In this document: positions 1 to 35,486 of the stretch, one piece after another
Position numbering within the stretch: the first letter of the stretch is position 1
Layout: every line of letters starts with the position of its first letter
From: a virus
DNA: 36,068 nt
Strand: one strand, 5' to 3'
Virus record (IMG/VR): IMGVR_UViG_3300034066_000343
Span: 1 to 36,068 of that record
Program-made: the position numbers and the translations under genes
The notes under the pieces: generated by a model
Seen by the model: only the letters and a program-made list of their open reading frames with translations
What the model was told of the DNA's origin: nothing
Database searches by the model: none

Positions 1-243
1 ACAAGCAAGGATGTCACCACCCTCTTCAACTTCGGTCTCAGGCAAACGCTGAATCCAACGTGCTTGAACGGTTTTTAATTTTCCGCCTCCTGGAGAAACT
101 TCAGTGCGGATAAGTTTTGCGTTTTCTGGAGAAAGTAAGAACTCAAGAAAAGGAAGTTGCTCACGCTGACCAACTTCGATGAAGAGCTCGCTAAGTGACA
201 TTTGCACATTAGGACACTCCGATAGAATGCGAGATATAGACAT
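1..243 (-). CDS. Major capsid protein, N-terminal 81 residues (allele A, cut by window edge)
   Basis: Begins MSISRILSEC and runs off the window edge after residue 81. It encodes the same 81 residues as the N-terminus of the complete gene at 34196-35239, but 23 of the first 40 codons differ, every one synonymously. It is therefore an allele of the same capsid gene rather than a paralogue. The start is fixed by this agreement and by the leader RNA ending 6 nt upstream. No Shine-Dalgarno motif is present. Confidence 0.9.
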   Translation of the reverse strand, partial: MSISRILSECPNVQMSLSELFIEVGQREQLPFLEFLLSPENAKLIRTEVSPGGGKLKTVQARWIQRLPETEVEEGGDILAC

Positions 244-249
244 GATTGA

Positions 250-331
250 AATGTAGTTTGGAAGTTCCTTCAGTTATTAGGCCGGAAGGTTGCGCCTACT
301 TTGTGCCGATAAAGTTGGCACTCACTACATC
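250..331 (-). ncRNA. Structured capsid-mRNA leader with H-type pseudoknot (allele A)
   Basis: Read on the minus strand. Outer helix P1 pairs GATGTAG (331-325) with CTACATT (256-250), ending 6 nt before the start codon. Hairpin P2 pairs GTGCC (321-317) with GGCAC (307-303). Pseudoknot stem 1 pairs TAGGC (298-294) with GCCTA (282-278). Pseudoknot stem 2 pairs CCTTC (289-285) with GAAGG (271-267). The strand order S1-S2-S1-S2 with loops of 4, 2 and 6 nt is a feasible H-type pseudoknot. Allele B at 35246-35326 keeps all four helices with different sequences in P2 and stem 2. Function is inferred: control of capsid translation or mRNA stability. Confidence 0.65.
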
Positions 332-343
332 ATCATAGAATTG

Positions 344-375
344 CAAAGATATGGAGTCGCTGTGAATTGAGCAAA
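344..375 (-). promoter_or_regulatory. Capsid promoter, Bacteroidota type (allele A)
   Basis: On the minus strand TTTG (375-372) is followed by exactly 20 nt and TATCTTTG (351-344), matching the Bacteroidota -33 TTTG / -7 TAnnTTTG consensus. The -33 box is made from the T-tract of the preceding terminator, so termination and re-initiation are packed together. The transcript would begin just upstream of leader helix P1. Confidence 0.7.
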
Positions 376-5282: not shown

Positions 5283-6183
5283 GCTTATGGTCAGTTATTC
5301 TGTGAATAAAGTATTTGTGCTGAATGCCATCTTCTTGCATCCATGCTTTTAATTTTCGGTCGAGCCAGTCGATGTAAAAGCTTGGCGTGAATCCTTTGCC
5401 GCCATAATAGCTCATTAGATAGAACCGTTGTTCAATCTGGGTAAATGTGAACTCTCTATTCATCTGGAAGCAAACCACATCAATCTCATAAGGCTTGAAG
5501 TTATTTTTACCGAATGATACATTGAAGTAAAGCTCATCGGGTTGCCCACCGCCCCACTTCATTCGAAGCTTGTTAATGGGCATCGGATTGTTGAGATACA
5601 TATCAGCAGCGGTCCGATAAATCGCTTCAGCTTCATCGCATTTCTCAATGAACTGAATACTGCTATTGATGGCGTATATCTTATCTGTTTTATTCAATCC
5701 GAAGTGTTGCCATAATTGGTCAGCCCACGCCCATTGCATCTCTTTAAAATCGCGGCCTTTGTCGATGGTATGCTCACCCACAACTCGAGTGGCATACTTA
5801 GCATCGTTTGCAATTAGCTGCTCGATAAGAGGCTGCAAGTCCTTCAAGCATACGGCATCTACATCGAGGTATAGATTGTAATGGAACGGCAAGTAATCAT
5901 AAAGCAAAACTTTGGCCTTGCCTGGATCTAATTTCTTATTCGTGTATATGTGCTGCTCCGGCAAATCTACATATACATCGATTTGGTTTGTCAAGTCATG
6001 GCAATAGTACAATGCCCTTTCCTTGCTGTCGGTGATTAGCGCAATCTGCAAATCTTTATTGAATCGTTTAATCGAGTACGCTAAATTGTAAGCAGCCCAA
6101 TAATATTGAGGCTTGCCAAAAGCAACAAGCACCACCCCTGTTGAGGCGTGCTTGTCACTCTGATTTGTTGGTTGAATATCCAT
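5263..6183 (-). CDS. Glycosyltransferase, GT-A fold (GT8-like)
   Basis: A 306-residue protein with an N-terminal nucleotide-sugar fold (VVLVAFGKPQYY), a metal-binding DxD motif in LYLDVDAV (D107 and D109), and an INSSIQF motif with the downstream acidic QPDEL expected of retaining GT8-type enzymes. It would transfer a sugar from a nucleotide sugar to an unknown acceptor. No membrane segment or signal peptide is present, so it acts in the cytoplasm. It lies inside the virion operon, immediately after the putative tail-tube gene (TAATG overlap) and before a methyltransferase, which suggests glycosylation of a structural protein. Confidence 0.75.
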   Translation of the reverse strand: MDIQPTNQSDKHASTGVVLVAFGKPQYYWAAYNLAYSIKRFNKDLQIALITDSKERALYYCHDLTNQIDVYVDLPEQHIYTNKKLDPGKAKVLLYDYLPFHYNLYLDVDAVCLKDLQPLIEQLIANDAKYATRVVGEHTIDKGRDFKEMQWAWADQLWQHFGLNKTDKIYAINSSIQFIEKCDEAEAIYRTAADMYLNNPMPINKLRMKWGGGQPDELYFNVSFGKNNFKPYEIDVVCFQMNREFTFTQIEQRFYLMSYYGGKGFTPSFYIDWLDRKLKAWMQEDGIQHKYFIHRITDHKHADPRR

Positions 6184-6722
6184 TATCCAAAGATACCAGC
6201 AGGGGCATCGTATTGTTCAGGAATATTCTTGTCACGCCATGAGAACGTCACTTCGTAACGCTGCAATTCATTGTTCTGCTCAGGCAAGATGAAGTTCGCT
6301 GAGGTAGTAATACCAACTGGAGGGTTGATGTATATCACCTTTCCGCTGTCGCACATGTACGCAAGTATCCATGCAATGCGGCGGTTGTTTACATCATTCC
6401 AGAAAGTATTATTCTCGTCAGTTACGTTTGCATCAAACAAGGTTGCAGTACGGTCTTCGTTGATACGAATTGCAGTACCGCAGCCGATTGGGCTGTCAAC
6501 AGTTACCGGAGAACCAGCAGGAAGAGCGAAGCGGATATCCTCGATGAGCTTTGCAGTGCCGGCAATTAACAATGCGTCAACTGCTGCTTCATCTGAAGGA
6601 TTAACCAATTCTGTTCCGCAGGCTCCCACGATAATCGCAGAAACACCACCGAGCTTGTATTCGTTGCAGTTTACTAAGTTGTGATCAAGTAGCGAAGAAT
6701 CGCAGTAGCTTACACAAGCCAT
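6183..6722 (-). CDS. Putative major tail (tube) protein
   Basis: A 179-residue protein beginning MACVSYCDSS. The C-terminal part (residues about 135-179) reads as a beta-rich segment ending in a W-x-D-K-N-x-P-x-x-YDAPAGIF motif. It has its own promoter and a structured leader of the same design as the capsid leader, which suggests a very abundant virion protein. Together with its place after the tape-measure and tail-tip genes and its length, major tail protein is the best guess. No diagnostic motif is visible, so another abundant structural protein is possible. Confidence 0.5.
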   Translation of the reverse strand: MACVSYCDSSLLDHNLVNCNEYKLGGVSAIIVGACGTELVNPSDEAAVDALLIAGTAKLIEDIRFALPAGSPVTVDSPIGCGTAIRINEDRTATLFDANVTDENNTFWNDVNNRRIAWILAYMCDSGKVIYINPPVGITTSANFILPEQNNELQRYEVTFSWRDKNIPEQYDAPAGIFG

Positions 6723-6725
6723 AGT

Positions 6726-6792
6726 ATAGAGATTTAATTTGTTGGTGTGATGCCAGTTGAATAGGATGGCACACTAAGTCCTACGTCTCTAT
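6726..6792 (-). ncRNA. Structured leader with H-type pseudoknot (putative tail-tube mRNA)
   Basis: Read on the minus strand. Outer helix pairs ATAGAGA (6792-6786) with TCTCTAT (6732-6726), 3 nt before the ATG. Pseudoknot stem 1 pairs TAGGA (6783-6779) with TCCTA (6766-6762). Stem 2 pairs GTGTGCCA (6774-6767) with TGGCATCAC (6755-6747), 8 bp with one bulged T. Loops are CTTA (4 nt), 0 nt and 6 nt. The GTAGG core, the 4-nt first loop and the closing helix next to the start codon match the capsid leaders at 250-331 and 35246-35326. The extra P2 hairpin of those leaders is absent. Confidence 0.6.
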
Positions 6793-6803
6793 GATGATCT
6801 GTG

Positions 6804-6832
6804 CAAATATACGAATTTATTCTTGATACAAA
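6804..6832 (-). promoter_or_regulatory. Promoter for the putative tail-tube gene
   Basis: Minus strand TTTG (6832-6829), 17 nt, then TATATTTG (6811-6804). The -7 box is perfect and the spacing is at the short end of the Bacteroidota range. The -33 box lies within the last codons of the preceding tail gene. Confidence 0.55.
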
Positions 6833-20483: not shown

Positions 20484-22010
20484 TTAAAATCCTGTGAATT
20501 CAATGTACTGTTCTGGGTTTTGTTTTTTATACTGTTCCGTTGAAAGTTCTCCTATTTTTTTATCTACAAATTTTTTATGGAACTGGTCAAATCTGCGATT
20601 CTTTTCTTTACACCAGAGCCTCGCAAGTTCATAAATTTTTGAATAAATAATCTCATAATTTTTAGGTCCTAATTCTTTATATATACTCATCCCATTGTTG
20701 AAAACTTGCTCAATAACCACATAAAGAGATCTATACTCCTTGTGATGCGCATTTGCTTCTATAAGTTTTTTTACATCGATGGCATTAGAAACCAATATAA
20801 ACTTCTCGATGGCCTCATCCTTTGGCTTGATTACCGGAAATACATGGCCGCAAGGAAACAACATCCCGAGATATTGCGCATCGCATACCTTCTTTGCGGT
20901 GTGATGCAGAGCTCCGCACTTTGGGCACTGCCTAACCGGAGCGACTCCTTCGCCTGGCTTCTTTGGATTGTGGAAGATATCGCTCCAGTTGCGAGGCGAT
21001 GACCAAAGCCCATGTGTCATGCAGTTTCCTCCAAGGTCTATGATGGTAAATGCGAGCTTGACATTATGTGGCCGTGCTCCACGTCCGCACATCTGAAGCC
21101 ACAAGGGCATTGATGCTGTGGCCTTGTTAACGATGACGGTCTCGATGTCTGGCTGGTCGAATCCAGTGGTGGCAATTCCGATGTTGTTGAGTATTGCATC
21201 GGGTGTGTTGGCGAACCATTGGAGCACCTCAGAGCGATCAGGCGAGTCAGCATCGAGATGGCGAGAATTGAATCCGGCTTCCACGAACGCAGCGTTAACG
21301 GCCATCGAGTGCTCAACATTGCAATTGAAGATAATTGTCTTTTGGCCGAGTGAGTGTGCCTTGTAGGCGTTTATGGTTGTCTCAATGTACTTAGGTGCTT
21401 TGTATGCCGCCGCCATCTGTGCTGCATCGAAGTCGCCAGCTTTCATCTTGAGCCTTGCGCGGTCCACTATCTGAGCCGCTGAGTAGGTTAGTTCTGGGCA
21501 AAGAAAGCCCTGCTCGATTAGTTCTGGGATGTCGATGCCGCACACGATATCATCGAAATAATTGCGCAGCGGATTGGTCTTGCGTGCTGCAAGCGGCGTT
21601 GCTGTGAAGCCGATGATATATGACTGCGTGAAGTGCTCGATGACCTTTGTGAAGTTGCCGATATGGCACTCATCGACAATCACAAGCCCGATGTTGGCGA
21701 ACTTGTCCAGCCGCTTGTATGCAGTCTCAACCATTGCCACATAAACGCGAGCATGCGGAATCGACTTCATGCCAGCTGTCACGGCTTGTGTGCGGAGCTT
21801 GATGGCCTTGCTTGCCTGTGCGAGCAGTTCTTCGCGATGCACAAGGATTAGGATGTCCGTGCTGTTGCGCGCTGTGAAGCGGTCACATATCGCAGCAAAG
21901 CACACCGTCTTGCCTCCACCAGTTGCGAGCTGCGCAACCACCTTGCGGTGGGTACTCAGCTTCGCAGCGATGTTGTTGATGAATCGTTCCTGGTAGGGGC
22001 GAAGGGTCAT
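20484..22010 (-). CDS. SF2 DEAD/DECH-box helicase
   Basis: A 508-residue helicase with motif I ATGGGKT (29-35), motif II DECH (113-116), motif III FTATP (135-139) and motif VI QMCGRGARPH, all intact. A C-terminal zinc-binding region has CPKCG and, further on, a C-G-H cluster. Most similar in layout to phage type III restriction-like or UvsW-like helicases involved in recombination-dependent replication. No nuclease domain is attached. Its start overlaps the preceding gene by ATGA. Confidence 0.9.
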   Translation of the reverse strand: MTLRPYQERFINNIAAKLSTHRKVVAQLATGGGKTVCFAAICDRFTARNSTDILILVHREELLAQASKAIKLRTQAVTAGMKSIPHARVYVAMVETAYKRLDKFANIGLVIVDECHIGNFTKVIEHFTQSYIIGFTATPLAARKTNPLRNYFDDIVCGIDIPELIEQGFLCPELTYSAAQIVDRARLKMKAGDFDAAQMAAAYKAPKYIETTINAYKAHSLGQKTIIFNCNVEHSMAVNAAFVEAGFNSRHLDADSPDRSEVLQWFANTPDAILNNIGIATTGFDQPDIETVIVNKATASMPLWLQMCGRGARPHNVKLAFTIIDLGGNCMTHGLWSSPRNWSDIFHNPKKPGEGVAPVRQCPKCGALHHTAKKVCDAQYLGMLFPCGHVFPVIKPKDEAIEKFILVSNAIDVKKLIEANAHHKEYRSLYVVIEQVFNNGMSIYKELGPKNYEIIYSKIYELARLWCKEKNRRFDQFHKKFVDKKIGELSTEQYKKQNPEQYIEFTGF

Positions 22011-22418: not shown

Positions 22419-22627
22419 GACTCCAGTCTTTTATCCATTGGGATGAAGTCCGAGCCATTGCCGTGCACGGTCTTGATGAAGTCAACTTCAACCTTTGCGG
22501 AGTTAATAATTACTTGAGCGACCTCAGCTATTGTGCGTGCTTTGTCGAGCTCCATGTCACCATCTTTGAGCATCTCGATTGTCTCGAATAGGTGGTCTCT
22601 TAGGTGTTCAATTTTGTTCTTTGCCAT
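22415..22627 (-). CDS. Small helical protein, 70 aa
   Basis: The start MAKNKIEHLRDHLFETIEML at 22627 is an ATG; the frame extends upstream only with a TTG. The core motif IAEVAQVIINSAKVEVDFIK is common to small phage proteins next to HNH and helicase genes. It is likely a helical dimer. Overlaps the HNH gene by 20 bp. Confidence 0.75.
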   Translation of the reverse strand: MAKNKIEHLRDHLFETIEMLKDGDMELDKARTIAEVAQVIINSAKVEVDFIKTVHGNGSDFIPMDKRLES

Positions 22628-23234
22628 GTGATTCAATTTTACGTTTTAGTTTAGAAAGTATTTTCATTGCCGATTTGACCTCTTCAGGGTATCGGTGAAT
22701 TGTGTTAAGTCGCATGTTGCTTTCGCGATCTACCAGCATGAGGTTCTCGACTTGCCAGTTGTCTTTGTTCCCATCGATGAAGCGCAGGAACTTACCTTCT
22801 GGAATCGGGCCGTTTTCTAATTCCCAGGCAAGGCGGTGAATCATAACCCAGCCTTGGCGGCCTTCTGCAATCTTCATCCATGTGTATCCTTCGCCATCCA
22901 CGCGAGTCCATCCGATGGGCTTGTGGTTTGCAGGCAGATGGCCCGGCTTGAATAGCGTATGTTCTGGTGCGTTGTTCCGTCCTTTGATTCCTTTGTTCCA
23001 AGCCTCTTGGCCTTTGTAGAAGCGGTTGTTTATTCCAGCAAGTGCCACAACAGGACCATGTATTTCGCGGATGTACTCCTTTGTCTTTTTGATGCCGCGA
23101 GAGTTTGCGAGCTGATGCACCTTGTTAATGCTTATGCCGAGCACATCAGCCATCTCTGCCGTCCGCGTTGTTGGATATGCTTCGATGATGTAGTCAATCA
23201 CCTCTTTTGGATACTTATTTCCCATAATTGCCAT
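22608..23234 (-). CDS. HNH-family endonuclease with N-terminal HTH
   Basis: A 208-residue protein. Residues 10-50 form a helix-turn-helix (RTAEMADVLGISINKVHQLA). Residues 80-190 form an HNH_3-type domain (HKPIGWTRVDGEGYTWMKIA, IHRLAWELENGPIP, FIDGNKDNWQVENL). The catalytic histidine usually just before IDGN is replaced by phenylalanine (LRFIDGNK), as in a phage subgroup. An in-frame ATG at 23225 is an alternative start. Free-standing homing-type nuclease or a domesticated DNA-binding protein are both possible. Confidence 0.75.
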   Translation of the reverse strand: MAIMGNKYPKEVIDYIIEAYPTTRTAEMADVLGISINKVHQLANSRGIKKTKEYIREIHGPVVALAGINNRFYKGQEAWNKGIKGRNNAPEHTLFKPGHLPANHKPIGWTRVDGEGYTWMKIAEGRQGWVMIHRLAWELENGPIPEGKFLRFIDGNKDNWQVENLMLVDRESNMRLNTIHRYPEEVKSAMKILSKLKRKIESHGKEQN

Positions 23235-23805
23235 CGAATTGATTGAGGAAATTTGCGATTAGCTGGTAAGCATGGTCGAGCTCTTGTTGATTGTGCCGGT
23301 ATAGGTAGAGGTCTTTGAACTGCCCAGACTTCTTGACCTTTGGAGGCACGCCGATGTAGTAGAAGTCTTTCGGATCCCAGCCCATCAGCATGCAGTACCA
23401 AACGGCCTGCACATGGTTGAAATGTTTAATCATGTCATCGGCGAAGGCTTGCAGGTTCTTGGCCGTTGTGGTCTTAACATCTGCGATGATCTTCATTTCA
23501 TCCCAGCAGATATCCATAGCACCCTTGGCAAGTACGGTCTTATCTCCAACTGTGAGCTCACTCACCACGATGCGCTCCTTCTCGGATTTGTCGAAGAGCT
23601 CACCAAGTAGTTCCACCTGGTGAATTGCATCGTATGTGTTGCGCACTGCATCGCCCATCTCTGAGTAGTCGCATTCAAGTAGTGAGTAGTGGAAGTCCTT
23701 GCCATAGTTAAGCGATGCCTTTGCATAACTGATGTCTCCCGTGTAGAATCGTTTGATCCTGCTTGCGCTTACCGCTGGGTATTTTATGTAGTCTTCGCGT
23801 GTCAT
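23215..23805 (-). CDS. PD-(D/E)XK exonuclease (DUF3799/YqaJ-like)
   Basis: A 196-residue nuclease. H39 (FHYSLLE), D98 (KGAMDIC), and D109 with K111 in IADVKTT form the H-D-DxK active site, followed by QAVWYCML. This is the recombination exonuclease usually paired with an annealing or SSB protein. Here it lies in the same operon as the SSB-like and coiled-coil genes. It probably resects DNA ends for recombination-dependent replication. Confidence 0.85.
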   Translation of the reverse strand: MTREDYIKYPAVSASRIKRFYTGDISYAKASLNYGKDFHYSLLECDYSEMGDAVRNTYDAIHQVELLGELFDKSEKERIVVSELTVGDKTVLAKGAMDICWDEMKIIADVKTTTAKNLQAFADDMIKHFNHVQAVWYCMLMGWDPKDFYYIGVPPKVKKSGQFKDLYLYRHNQQELDHAYQLIANFLNQFDGNYGK

Positions 23806-26930: not shown

Positions 26931-27097
26931 TTGATTAGTTCGTTAAGTCGTTTTAAATACTCATCCTTATTGCGCAATTCATTGAGCAAGATATCAGCCG
27001 CCACCTTCAGCGGCATAGCTTTTTCTGCGATATAAACAGCCAGCACCTTTACAAGTCGCTCATCACATTCGCAATCGGTAGCCGGTAGGTTGCTCAT
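26903..27097 (-). CDS. Small conserved helical protein, 64 aa
   Basis: Begins MSNLPATDCECDERLVKVLA. The helical core continues as KVAADILLNELRNKDEYLKR. Overlaps the preceding gene by 4 bp (ATGA) and the following spanin-like gene by 28 bp. Function unknown. Confidence 0.65.
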   Translation of the reverse strand: MSNLPATDCECDERLVKVLAVYIAEKAMPLKVAADILLNELRNKDEYLKRLNELIKCTRATSVH

Positions 27098-27660
27098 ATT
27101 TGCCTGGTTGCTTTCTTAACTAATAGCCGGATGACATCATCAAGCTTATCAACGCTATTTGCAAGCATCTTCATCACATCATTGCGCTCCTGATCCGTTG
27201 CGCTTTCGTGCTCAATCATCATCTTCACCAAGCCACCGATTGAAGTCAATGGCTGGCGAAGTTCATGAGATAGCATGAAACGGAACTCTTCCAGAAGGAT
27301 CTTCTGGCGTTCATGCTCATGGTTGCTTATGGAAGTAACATCGACAAGTTGAATCCCGATGAAGTGCAGCATGTCAACAATGGAATAAATATTCCACATG
27401 TTGTAACGCTCAGAGGCCATCTTCTGCTTTGTCTTGGCATAGGTGCGAATCGGGTCCGGTGCTTTCTTCTGCGACTTCCTGATTGCAGTGAGCAACTCAT
27501 CGCGATCGGAATCATTGGCCGCAATGTCCAATATATTGCCGGGCTTAATGTGGCTGCTGTACTCCTTGAACAAGTCATTGGAGGTGACGATATTGCCATC
27601 CTTATCGGTGATCACATAGAAGAGGTCGATGCTCGACTCAAGGATGTGCAGGCTTGCCAT
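27094..27660 (-). CDS. PAS-DHp protein: histidine kinase without an ATPase domain
   Basis: A 188-residue protein. Residues 1-110 form a PAS domain (DLFYVITDKDGNIVTSN, LHFIGIQLVDVTS). Residues 115-185 form a HisKA dimerisation helix pair with a perfect H-box FMLSHELRQPLTSIG (H132, E133, P137). The HATPase_c domain (N, G1 and G2 boxes) is absent and the gene stops cleanly, with no remnant downstream. The protein could dimerise with, or accept phosphate from, host kinases. It starts at the ATG at 27660; the only upstream extension is a TTG. Cytoplasmic; lies within the lysis region. Confidence 0.8.
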   Translation of the reverse strand: MASLHILESSIDLFYVITDKDGNIVTSNDLFKEYSSHIKPGNILDIAANDSDRDELLTAIRKSQKKAPDPIRTYAKTKQKMASERYNMWNIYSIVDMLHFIGIQLVDVTSISNHEHERQKILLEEFRFMLSHELRQPLTSIGGLVKMMIEHESATDQERNDVMKMLANSVDKLDDVIRLLVKKATRQI

Positions 27661-27664
27661 ATCG

Positions 27665-27672
27665 CAAAGATA
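27665..27672 (-). promoter_or_regulatory. -7 element (TATCTTTG) before the PAS-DHp gene
   Basis: TATCTTTG lies 4 nt before the ATG. A TTG box is at 27698-27696, 23 nt upstream, at the edge of the accepted spacing. A leaderless transcript of this gene is possible. Confidence 0.4.
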
Positions 27673-27689
27673 AGGCAAGGATTGAACTT

Positions 27690-34087: not shown

Positions 34088-34113
34088 AAAAAAAGGAGGG
34101 CACGAAGCCCTCC
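34087..34113 (-). terminator. Terminator after the capsid gene
   Basis: Stem GGAGGGC/GCCCTCC (34095-34101 with 34107-34113), 5-nt loop, and a run of eight T on the minus strand (34094-34087). Classical intrinsic terminator. Confidence 0.9.
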
Positions 34114-34115
34114 CT

Positions 34116-34199
34116 TTATTGCGTGGTTAGATTATCTAATCCATCTTGGGTCAATAAGTCCTCATCGGCTTGCGAGAGTAAACCTACCGACCCGATTAC
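34116..34199 (-). other. Candidate -1 frameshift extension of the capsid protein (27 residues)
   Basis: The capsid gene ends GTA AAC CCG TAA. A slip at A_AAC_CCG (XXXYYYZ) continues in the -1 frame for 27 residues (VIGSVGLLSQADEDLLTQ, then DGLDNLTTQ) and stops exactly before the terminator stem. T7 gene 10 makes a minor capsid protein this way, with its terminator hairpin nearby. The heptamer is less slippery than the tail one, so it remains a hypothesis. Confidence 0.35.
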
Positions 34200-35239
34200 G
34201 GGTTTACGATAGAAACGCAGTTCACGTAGTTAACACCAGCGAACTTGTCAGCTGATTCGTAAATGTCAGTCGGAAGAGTCACAACTTTACCAGTTGTAGT
34301 CAACACGATTGACAAGTTACCGCAATCATCCTTCATTGTCAAATCAACAGGAACTCCAGCAGGTGTGAACACCAAAGTCTTAGAGTAGTTTGATCCAGCA
34401 ACAGGAGTGATGCCAGTGTTCCAATCAGCAAGGTTGAAAGACAACCACTGGATTGCTCCGGCAGTAGTTACCAACGCTGAGTTCTGATCACCTTGAGCAG
34501 CAGCCAAACGTGAATCGTAAGCAAAGCCGAAACCATTTTGCTGAGTGATTGCAAGAAGGTCAAGACCGTACTGTGAGCAGCAGCCAGCAGCCATTGCATT
34601 AGCATAACGCTGCATTGCAGCACCACCGAAAGCAACTGGTGCTCCTGGATAGTTAGCCATGCGAGTAGCCTGCTGAATGTCAGCGATTGCAAATGGATTC
34701 GGCTCAGTTGTGCCGTTCATTGTAGCAATCTCCAAGCAGTCACCAGTTACAGTGTAGAAACCTTCTACATCAGTGCCCCACTTTCCGATGTCAGCAACAG
34801 CCTGAACAGCAGCAGCAGAAGCAACCTTGCGGTCGATTACATCCATCAAACGCATAACTGACTCAAGCACATAGCGAGAATTCTCTTGGCAATGGCGAGC
34901 GATGTCAGCAGCATTGATAAGCTGTGATGCAGTGTAAGTGTCAGTTGTATCTACTGTGTAAGTAGTTGTGCTGTCACCATAAGTGTTGGTTGAAGTACAA
35001 GCAAGGATGTCACCACCCTCTTCAACTTCGGTCTCAGGCAAACGCTGAATCCAACGTGCTTGAACGGTTTTTAATTTTCCGCCTCCTGGAGAAACCTCAG
35101 TGCGGATAAGTTTTGCGTTCTCAGGTGACAAAAGGAATTCCAAGAACGGGAGTTGTTCACGCTGGCCCACTTCGATGAATAGCTCAGACAATGACATCTG
35201 AACATTAGGGCATTCTGAAAGAATACGAGATATAGACAT
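34196..35239 (-). CDS. Major capsid protein (complete, allele B)
   Basis: A 347-residue protein, in the size class of HK97-fold capsid proteins, with an N-terminal helical arm, a beta-rich E-loop region (GGGKLKTVQARWIQRLPETE), and a long helical spine (INAADIARHCQENSRYVLES). It is the only gene with both a strong promoter and a structured leader plus its own terminator, consistent with the most abundant virion protein. The N-terminal 81 residues are identical in the second allele. A small acidic extension by frameshifting is possible. Confidence 0.85.
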   Translation of the reverse strand: MSISRILSECPNVQMSLSELFIEVGQREQLPFLEFLLSPENAKLIRTEVSPGGGKLKTVQARWIQRLPETEVEEGGDILACTSTNTYGDSTTTYTVDTTDTYTASQLINAADIARHCQENSRYVLESVMRLMDVIDRKVASAAAVQAVADIGKWGTDVEGFYTVTGDCLEIATMNGTTEPNPFAIADIQQATRMANYPGAPVAFGGAAMQRYANAMAAGCCSQYGLDLLAITQQNGFGFAYDSRLAAAQGDQNSALVTTAGAIQWLSFNLADWNTGITPVAGSNYSKTLVFTPAGVPVDLTMKDDCGNLSIVLTTTGKVVTLPTDIYESADKFAGVNYVNCVSIVNP

Positions 35240-35245
35240 GGTAAA

Positions 35246-35326
35246 AATGTAGAATGTTGGGCTCTCAATTGATAGGCTTGAGAGGTGAGCCTACATCGCC
35301 CCGGTAAGCTGGGGCCACACTACATC
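35246..35326 (-). ncRNA. Structured capsid-mRNA leader with H-type pseudoknot (allele B)
   Basis: Minus strand: outer helix GATGTAG (35326-35320) with CTACATT (35252-35246), 6 nt before the ATG. P2: GCCCC (35315-35311) with GGGGC (35302-35298). Stem 1: TAGGC (35293-35289) with GCCTA (35277-35273). Stem 2: CTCTCAA (35284-35278) with TTGAGAG (35268-35262). Loops are 4, 0 and 4 nt. Relative to allele A, P2 has two compensatory pair changes and stem 2 is wholly replaced while still pairing. Confidence 0.68.
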
Positions 35327-35339
35327 ATCATAGAAGTTG

Positions 35340-35347
35340 CAAAGATA
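35340..35347 (-). promoter_or_regulatory. Capsid -7 promoter element (allele B)
   Basis: TATCTTTG, in the same place relative to the leader as in allele A. The -33 TTTG found in allele A is not evident at the expected spacing here. Confidence 0.5.
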
Positions 35348-35349
35348 AT

Positions 35350-35377
35350 AAAAAAAGCCGACATAATATGCCGGCTT
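35350..35377 (-). terminator. Terminator 2 before the capsid promoter (allele B)
   Basis: Stem AAGCCGGCAT/ATGTCGGCTT on the minus strand (35377-35368 with 35364-35355), one G-U pair, 3-nt loop, followed by seven T (35356-35350, the first two shared with the stem). Confidence 0.88.
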
Positions 35378-35418
35378 CCCCAAACAACAAACAAAGAGTA
35401 GAACACTGAAGCAAAGAT

Positions 35419-35445
35419 AAAAAAAAGCCAGTGCGAAACTGGCTT
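35419..35445 (-). terminator. Terminator 1 before the capsid promoter (allele B)
   Basis: Stem AAGCCAGT/ACTGGCTT (35445-35438 with 35432-35425), 5-nt loop, and a T run to 35419. Tandem with the next terminator; allele A has only one, of unrelated sequence, at this locus. Confidence 0.88.
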
Positions 35446-35486
35446 CTTAAAACGACCTTGTACTTGTATGAAACAGGGCAAAGATA

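Follow-up and report, generated by a model that had tools for sequence, protein, structure and literature searches.

Ribosomal-protein leaders and autogenous operators place a cis-acting structure, by which expression can be controlled, over the translation start in mRNAs of abundant structural proteins. The preQ1-I riboswitch (RF00522) and the other small pseudoknot riboswitches in Rfam fold a small H-type pseudoknot with an A-containing third loop in the 5'-UTR, and the put RNA of the lambdoid phage HK022 is a structured, polymerase-modifying phage RNA at the very start of the transcript. The phage precedent for translational control by a pseudoknot is the operator of T4 gene 32 (PMC535899, PMC3014915), which a review of 2010 considered possibly the only viral pseudoknot in translational autoregulation (PMC3014915). 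In T4, T2 and RB69, this H-type pseudoknot is located at the 5' end of the mRNA, tens of nucleotides before the start; the operator comprises an unstructured, A+U-rich UUAAA/UAAA tract that separates pseudoknot and start codon, and the gene behind it encodes a self-repressing ssDNA-binding protein.

Here, we describe a strongly covarying pseudoknot leader on two virion-protein genes of an uncultured phage clade. Its nearest functional likeness is the gene 32 operator, as the pseudoknot lies near the 5' end of the leader and its stem 1 begins ~55 nt before the start codon. However, the interval corresponding to the unstructured tract forms the 3' strand of a helix (P1), and of the genes that follow, one is presumed to encode the capsid protein and the other a protein resembling tail-tube proteins. 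Because these two defining features of the gene 32 operator fail, the leader was not filed there. Moreover, its sequence differs, a helix that extends to the start codon closes its pseudoknot, and two genes are preceded by it. Judged from the comparison of sequences, the leader represents a new RNA family that can be added to annotation; its kind, the structured cis-acting mRNA leader, is known, and its setting is unusual. The whole 5' UTR (~80-100 nt) of both virion-protein mRNAs would consist of this element, in which P1 is predicted to enclose an H-type pseudoknot (stem 1 UAGGx/xCCU and a freely covarying stem 2) and to tie the 5' end to the start-codon region.

The capsid leader in two strains

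The window, i.e. the whole stretch of DNA analysed, is a 36,068-base IMG/VR record with nearly all large reading frames on the minus strand. The contig ends (1-1040 and 34999-36068) overlap over ~1 kb with 76-82% identity, so that two strains were probably wrapped into one assembly in this record, and its completeness and topology labels need care. Each end carries a capsid leader, named here A and B after the strains. The first-pass annotation had taken them for two alleles; instead, they are the overlapping ends of one contig, in which two strains of a circular or permuted genome were most likely joined by assembly, rather than two alleles within one virion. One capsid gene was found per relative read, and some relatives (e.g., G042) are split at the capsid gene.

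The "capsid" label given before agrees with gene order, since portal-like, minor-capsid-like and scaffold-like genes lie upstream, and the product of 34196-35239 is presumed on this ground to be the major capsid protein. Homology does not bear the label out: the protein had no Pfam, PHROG, PDB-sequence or phage-record match, and its AlphaFold2 model reached a pLDDT of 32. The features of this transcription unit in strain B are as follows:

34091-34117 (-): terminator-like hairpin 3' of the capsid gene
34196-35239 (-): presumed major capsid gene of strain B (347 aa); it has a promoter and a terminator of its own
35246-35252 (-): P1 3' strand CUACAUU of leader B
35262-35268 (-): stem 2 3' strand UUGAGAG
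35273-35293 (-): stem 1 UAGGC/GCCUA with the stem 2 5' strand CUCUCAA (35278-35284)
35291-35297 (-): second GAUGUAG, overlapping stem 1; it can pair with 35246-35252 (alternative helix P3)
35298-35315 (-): P2 hairpin GCCCC-agcuuacc-GGGGC
35320-35326 (-): P1 5' strand GAUGUAG, the first copy of this 7-mer
35340-35347 (-): -7 promoter box TATCTTTG (consensus match)
35351-35381 (-): terminator-like hairpin just upstream of the leader B promoter

The corresponding features of strain A, from the start of the gene to the promoter, are:

1-243 (-): 5' portion of the presumed capsid gene, which is truncated where the contig ends
241-246 (-): AUCAUG, the start codon (241-243) with its flank, paired with 332-337 (predicted P(unpaired) 0.04-0.20; comparative support)
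250-257 (-): P1 3' strand ACUACAUU
267-271 (-): pseudoknot stem 2 3' strand GAAGG (covariation)
278-282 (-): pseudoknot stem 1 3' strand GCCUA
285-289 (-): pseudoknot stem 2 5' strand CCUUC (covariation)
294-298 (-): pseudoknot stem 1 5' strand UAGGC
303-307 (-): P2 3' strand GGCAC (covariation)
308-316 (-): P2 loop AACUUUAUC (family consensus nACUUnnn)
317-321 (-): P2 5' strand GUGCC (covariation)
324-331 (-): P1 5' strand GAUGUAGU
332-337 (-): outer part of P1, UAUGAU, pairing with AUCAUG at 241-246 including the start codon (folding and comparison)
344-351 (-): -7 promoter box TATCTTTG of the TAnnTTTG type (consensus match)

The outer helix (GATGTAGT/ACTACATT), the hairpin and the pseudoknot of the first-pass annotation are all present at 250-331 and 35246-35326. 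Its comparison of the two leaders was also confirmed: P2 differs by two double changes (GTGCC/GGCAC versus GCCCC/GGGGC), stem 2 changes from CCTTC/GAAGG to CTCTCAA/TTGAGAG with pairing kept, and stem 1 reads TAGGC/GCCTA in both.

The capsid-leader RNA is delimited by the TATCTTTG box at 351 (strain B: 35347) and the start codon at 243 (strain B: 35239). As in Bacteroidota-type transcription units, a TAnnTTTG -7 box is located directly upstream of the leader, at 351(-), 35347(-) and, for the second copy described below, 6811(-), and the same holds for most homologues, nearly all in the case of the capsid leader; these boxes are consensus matches. The transcribed leader strand is the minus strand, because the gene, the TAnnTTTG boxes and the terminators all lie on it.

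Several minor features of this unit were observed. Just upstream of the capsid leader (35340-35486 and 344-446, both on the minus strand) there are tandem TAnnTTTG boxes, three in strain B and two in strain A, with terminator-like hairpins between them; short transcripts between the tandem boxes could represent small RNAs or insulators. Behind the capsid gene, the next gene has a promoter box (34087, minus strand) fused to the T-run of the capsid terminator, a compact arrangement that is found in relatives too. Conservation of the presumed capsid protein is very high, with a mean column identity of 92% among 13 members. At the mRNA 5' end, 324-338 (-) and 35320-35333 (-), there is a start-stop frame of three codons, AUGAUGAUGUAG. 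The possibility of a conserved upstream reading frame was examined and rejected: AUG(AUG)nUAG stands at the 5' end of many capsid leaders and, inspected by eye, is absent in the L034-type class.

Covariation among relatives and a second copy of the element

More than 200 relatives of the capsid protein can be found in IMG/VR. The 157 leaders with enough upstream sequence correspond to 70 distinct ones, and the pseudoknot core is kept in every one of them (70/70). With the tail-type leaders described below, 131 distinct leaders were available, nearly all on independent contigs; all of the compared leaders come from one phage clade. The core consists of UAGGx, a loop, stem 2, xCCU, a further loop and stem 2'. 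The loop before the stem 2 3' strand has 5-9 nt, usually with AA, and the capsid leaders add the P2 hairpin with an octaloop or nonaloop of the consensus nACUUnnn. Three more divergent capsids (73-78% identity; L418, L419 and L423) were read separately: in L419, P1 is GUAGUUAG/CUAACUAC and stem 2 is CAUUCU/AGAAUG, and in L418 and L423 a bulge interrupts stem 2.

The folds of single sequences are only modestly unusual (z of -3.0 and -1.9), that of leader B being unremarkable, and the case for the element therefore rests on comparison. Structural alignments were scripted, since the MAFFT alignments (A3 and A4) misplaced stem 2. Significant covariation across related leaders had been named beforehand as the test of the structure, and it was found: with a tree-based null (R-scape style; 46 capsid leaders, stem 2 and P2 registers picked per sequence), nine pairs were significant at E < 0.05, four in P2 and five in stem 2, and no non-structural pair was significant among the 2,775 column pairs examined. 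P1 has U-A, G-C and C-G at one position, yet stays below significance there in the tree test. Strand-swap permutations, in which the swapped strands were given equal freedom, served as an independent control for the choice of register. Not one of 20,000 permutations reached the observed complementarity for stem 2, P2 or P1 each in the capsid family, and the same result (0/20,000) was obtained for stem 2 in the tail-type family. The core-pair cells comprise 870 Watson-Crick pairs, 50 G-U, 4 A-C and 20 others; because G-U cells (50) outnumber A-C cells (4) in the homologues, the RNA is assigned to the minus strand by this measure as well. The leader observation was thus confirmed as real and beyond chance.

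The conserved structured leader with its compensatory changes stands as first described, but it is not specific for the capsid gene: the same pseudoknot, enclosed by P1 and without P2, is present at 6726-6792 (-) before a 179-aa gene. The features of this tail-type leader are:

6183-6722 (-): 179-aa gene, tail-tube-like by predicted fold (best E 2.6e-3, pLDDT 55)
6726-6732 (-): P1 3' strand UCUCUAU, 3 nt before the start codon
6751-6755 (-): stem 2 3' strand UGGCA
6762-6783 (-): stem 1 UAGGA (6779-6783)/UCCUA (6762-6766) with the stem 2 5' strand UGCCA (6767-6771)
6786-6792 (-): P1 5' strand AUAGAGA
6804-6811 (-): -7 promoter box TATATTTG (consensus match)

The nearest structures to the model of the 179-aa protein (pLDDT 55) are uncharacterised phage proteins, and major tail and tail-tube proteins follow further down with weak E-values; on this model, the product is presumed to be a tail-tube protein. 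Our model R1 matches 6747-6786 (-) with 43.4 bits (E 1e-8), a score reached partly by construction, as the copy in the window belongs to the R1 training set. R1 was trained on forms with a 7-nt loop and other capsid forms score low, so its misses do not mean absences. The relatives typically have two copies, one per gene; both were found by the model alone in about half of the records of 46 relatives, and the remaining capsid copies, which are below the reach of the model, were read directly.

Tail-type stem 2 is shorter, often with 3-4 pairs and a second segment. The last pair of stem 1 is A-U in 18, U-A in 18 and G-U in 7 tail-type leaders, i.e. paired in 43/43 distinct ones, and in capsid leaders it is C-G in nearly all and U-A in the most divergent. 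The strict invariance of stem 1 that had been read from leaders A and B consequently holds before neither gene.

Start-codon pairing and possible functions of the leader

In the capsid leaders, P1 joins the mRNA 5' end to the start codon. The matches between the 5' region and the start codon are UAUGAU/AUCAUG in strain A, UAUGGUAGUCG/CGACUAUCAUG in the L034 class and CGUAGU/ACUAUG in the L025 class, and the capsid 5' regions fit their own start-codon octamers better (12.4) than swapped ones (7.9; reached in 6/20,000 permutations). Tail-type leaders have start matches of 5-7 bp, for which the swap test was not significant (3,368/20,000). In nested folding, the start codons of leaders A and B are predicted to be 2-29% unpaired per base. 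The burial of the AUG in capsid leaders exceeds that in shuffles, and buried start codons are also predicted at several other genes of the window. In addition, a competing helix (P3) can form between the stem 1 flank and the start-proximal strand, and its pairing covaries in capsids (9/20,000); in leader B, GAUGUAG is present twice, and both copies fit CUACAUU.

The first-pass annotation had suggested that the outer helix, closing 6 nt before the start codon, could control ribosome access. This has become more plausible with the pairing of the capsid P1 strand to the start codon itself, translational control still being what we infer from it. Initiation in Bacteroidia proceeds without Shine-Dalgarno pairing and favours reduced structure at the start (PMC9976891); a closed leader should therefore inhibit translation and may act as a translational gate. 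In the closed form, the start codon would be held in a helix and translation kept low, and opening could occur if the pseudoknot or the hairpin is bound, or if P1 is exchanged for the competing P3 pairing. We put the chances at about even that the leader is a new cis-acting RNA element controlling the translation of two virion genes. It probably sets the timing or the amount of both virion proteins. A point against a repressive leader is that capsid and tail-tube proteins are needed in bulk. If translation is indeed controlled, the element offers a testable route to the RNA-level balance of capsid and tail subunits in hosts ignoring Shine-Dalgarno sequences. A more elaborate version would be a bistable switch, in which the start-proximal strand pairs either with the stem 1 strand or with the mRNA 5' end, and the occupancy of the pseudoknot by one shared factor opens both start codons and so sets the timing or ratio of the two most abundant virion proteins; we regard this as a tentative and rather doubtful extension.

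A serious rival to the translational gate, possible though clearly less probable than control of translation, is a constitutive stabiliser of the mRNA, with the 5' end locked in P1 and the hairpin and pseudoknot blocking 5'-end-dependent decay, i.e. with neither a switch nor a ligand. The structure starts within a few nucleotides of the -7 box and includes the extreme 5' end, the products of both target genes must be abundant, and P1, P2 and stem 2 conserve structure rather than sequence, all of which would suit such a role. A plain block, however, would hardly need stem 1 UAGG/CCU and the P2 loop sequence to be kept to such an extent, nor does it account for the matching of the capsid P1 to the start codon and the covariation of the competing helix.

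Control of translation could also be exerted through a protein, and the two readings partly overlap, an operator being in part a special case of translational control. The capsid protein, another virion protein or a shared regulator would bind the pseudoknot and repress or activate both genes, as gp32 does in T4. As in T4 gene 32, the leader has its pseudoknot at the 5' end, with the start codon following ~55 nt downstream, and a core common to two leaders would allow one factor to coordinate both genes. No candidate RNA-binding protein was identified, though, and as neither the last pair of stem 1 nor stem 2 nor P2 is the same in the two leaders, common recognition would be limited to UAGG/CCU and the AA loop; we consider this explanation unlikely. 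With the ribosomal-protein leaders, the element shares neither a match to an Rfam leader family nor any visible ribosomal mimicry.

It is very improbable that the leader acts on transcription in the manner of HK022 put, where the nascent RNA alters RNA polymerase for read-through of downstream terminators. In its favour are just the location of the RNA at the start of the transcripts and the terminators nearby (3' of the capsid gene and between the tandem promoters). Here, however, a pseudoknot and a start-codon helix are found in short, terminator-bounded units; the capsid unit resembles a monocistronic one whose terminator is immediately followed by a new promoter, and the element has its 3' strand matched to the start codon, a link that antitermination would not need.

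A metabolite-binding riboswitch with a small pseudoknot aptamer deserves still less credence, although size and topology (stem 1 and the loop are invariant, stem 2 varies, and one helix competes) are like those of small pseudoknot aptamers. In the limited searches described below, the element occurs in one phage clade only, its targets are virion genes, and its stem 2 is longer than in preQ1-I and freely covarying. In Rfam 15, no match at gathering level was obtained in the window or in 18 relatives, and at E <=10 (including preQ1 and other riboswitches, self-cleaving ribozymes and ribosomal-protein leaders) there were only chance matches near leaders A and B, none of them to a riboswitch, and none at the tail-type leader. 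The earlier statement that no described RNA family matches the leader agrees with these searches. Finally, chance complementarity or an assembly artefact, conceivable while only two copies at contig ends had been read and given the unremarkable fold of leader B, is refuted almost with certainty by 131 distinct leaders together with the permutation and tree tests.

Distribution, host and other features of the genome

Within the limited searches made, the element was not found beyond this clade. A search of 300 genomes of Flavobacteriaceae, with stricter filters and with a model to which some loop lengths are invisible, did not recover the motif: there were 3 matches at E <=0.01, and ~3 are expected by chance. 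In 8 host genomes, matches likewise occurred only at chance number. The single host-genome match inspected in detail (L475) was rejected as coding sequence. Flavobacterium phage 11b and Polaribacter phage P12002L, the nearest isolate phages checked, had no convincing match in the examined portions. With a loose pattern in IMG/VR, 80 of the matches listed were inspected, and promoter and pseudoknot occurred together only at capsid leaders, the rest being chance-like. Two tighter tail-type patterns gave 49 matches that are leaders of tail genes, and others elsewhere that are chance-like.

The terminase and portal proteins are distantly related to those of Flavobacterium phage 11b (31.5% identity, E 2e-23) and Polaribacter phage P12002L (E 2e-6). 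This distant kinship, together with the TAnnTTTG boxes, suggests a Bacteroidota host, and the phages probably form an uncharacterised clade of tailed phages infecting Bacteroidota.

Two further observations concern other genes of the window. A 194-aa frame with a TTG start at 27097-27678 (-) matches the HisKA phospho-acceptor domain of histidine kinases (E 1.4e-7), which is unusual for a small phage genome. Genes for a ResIII/DEAD-type helicase, an HNH endonuclease and a DUF3799 PDDEXK-like protein form one cluster at 20487-22010 and 22611-23805 (-).
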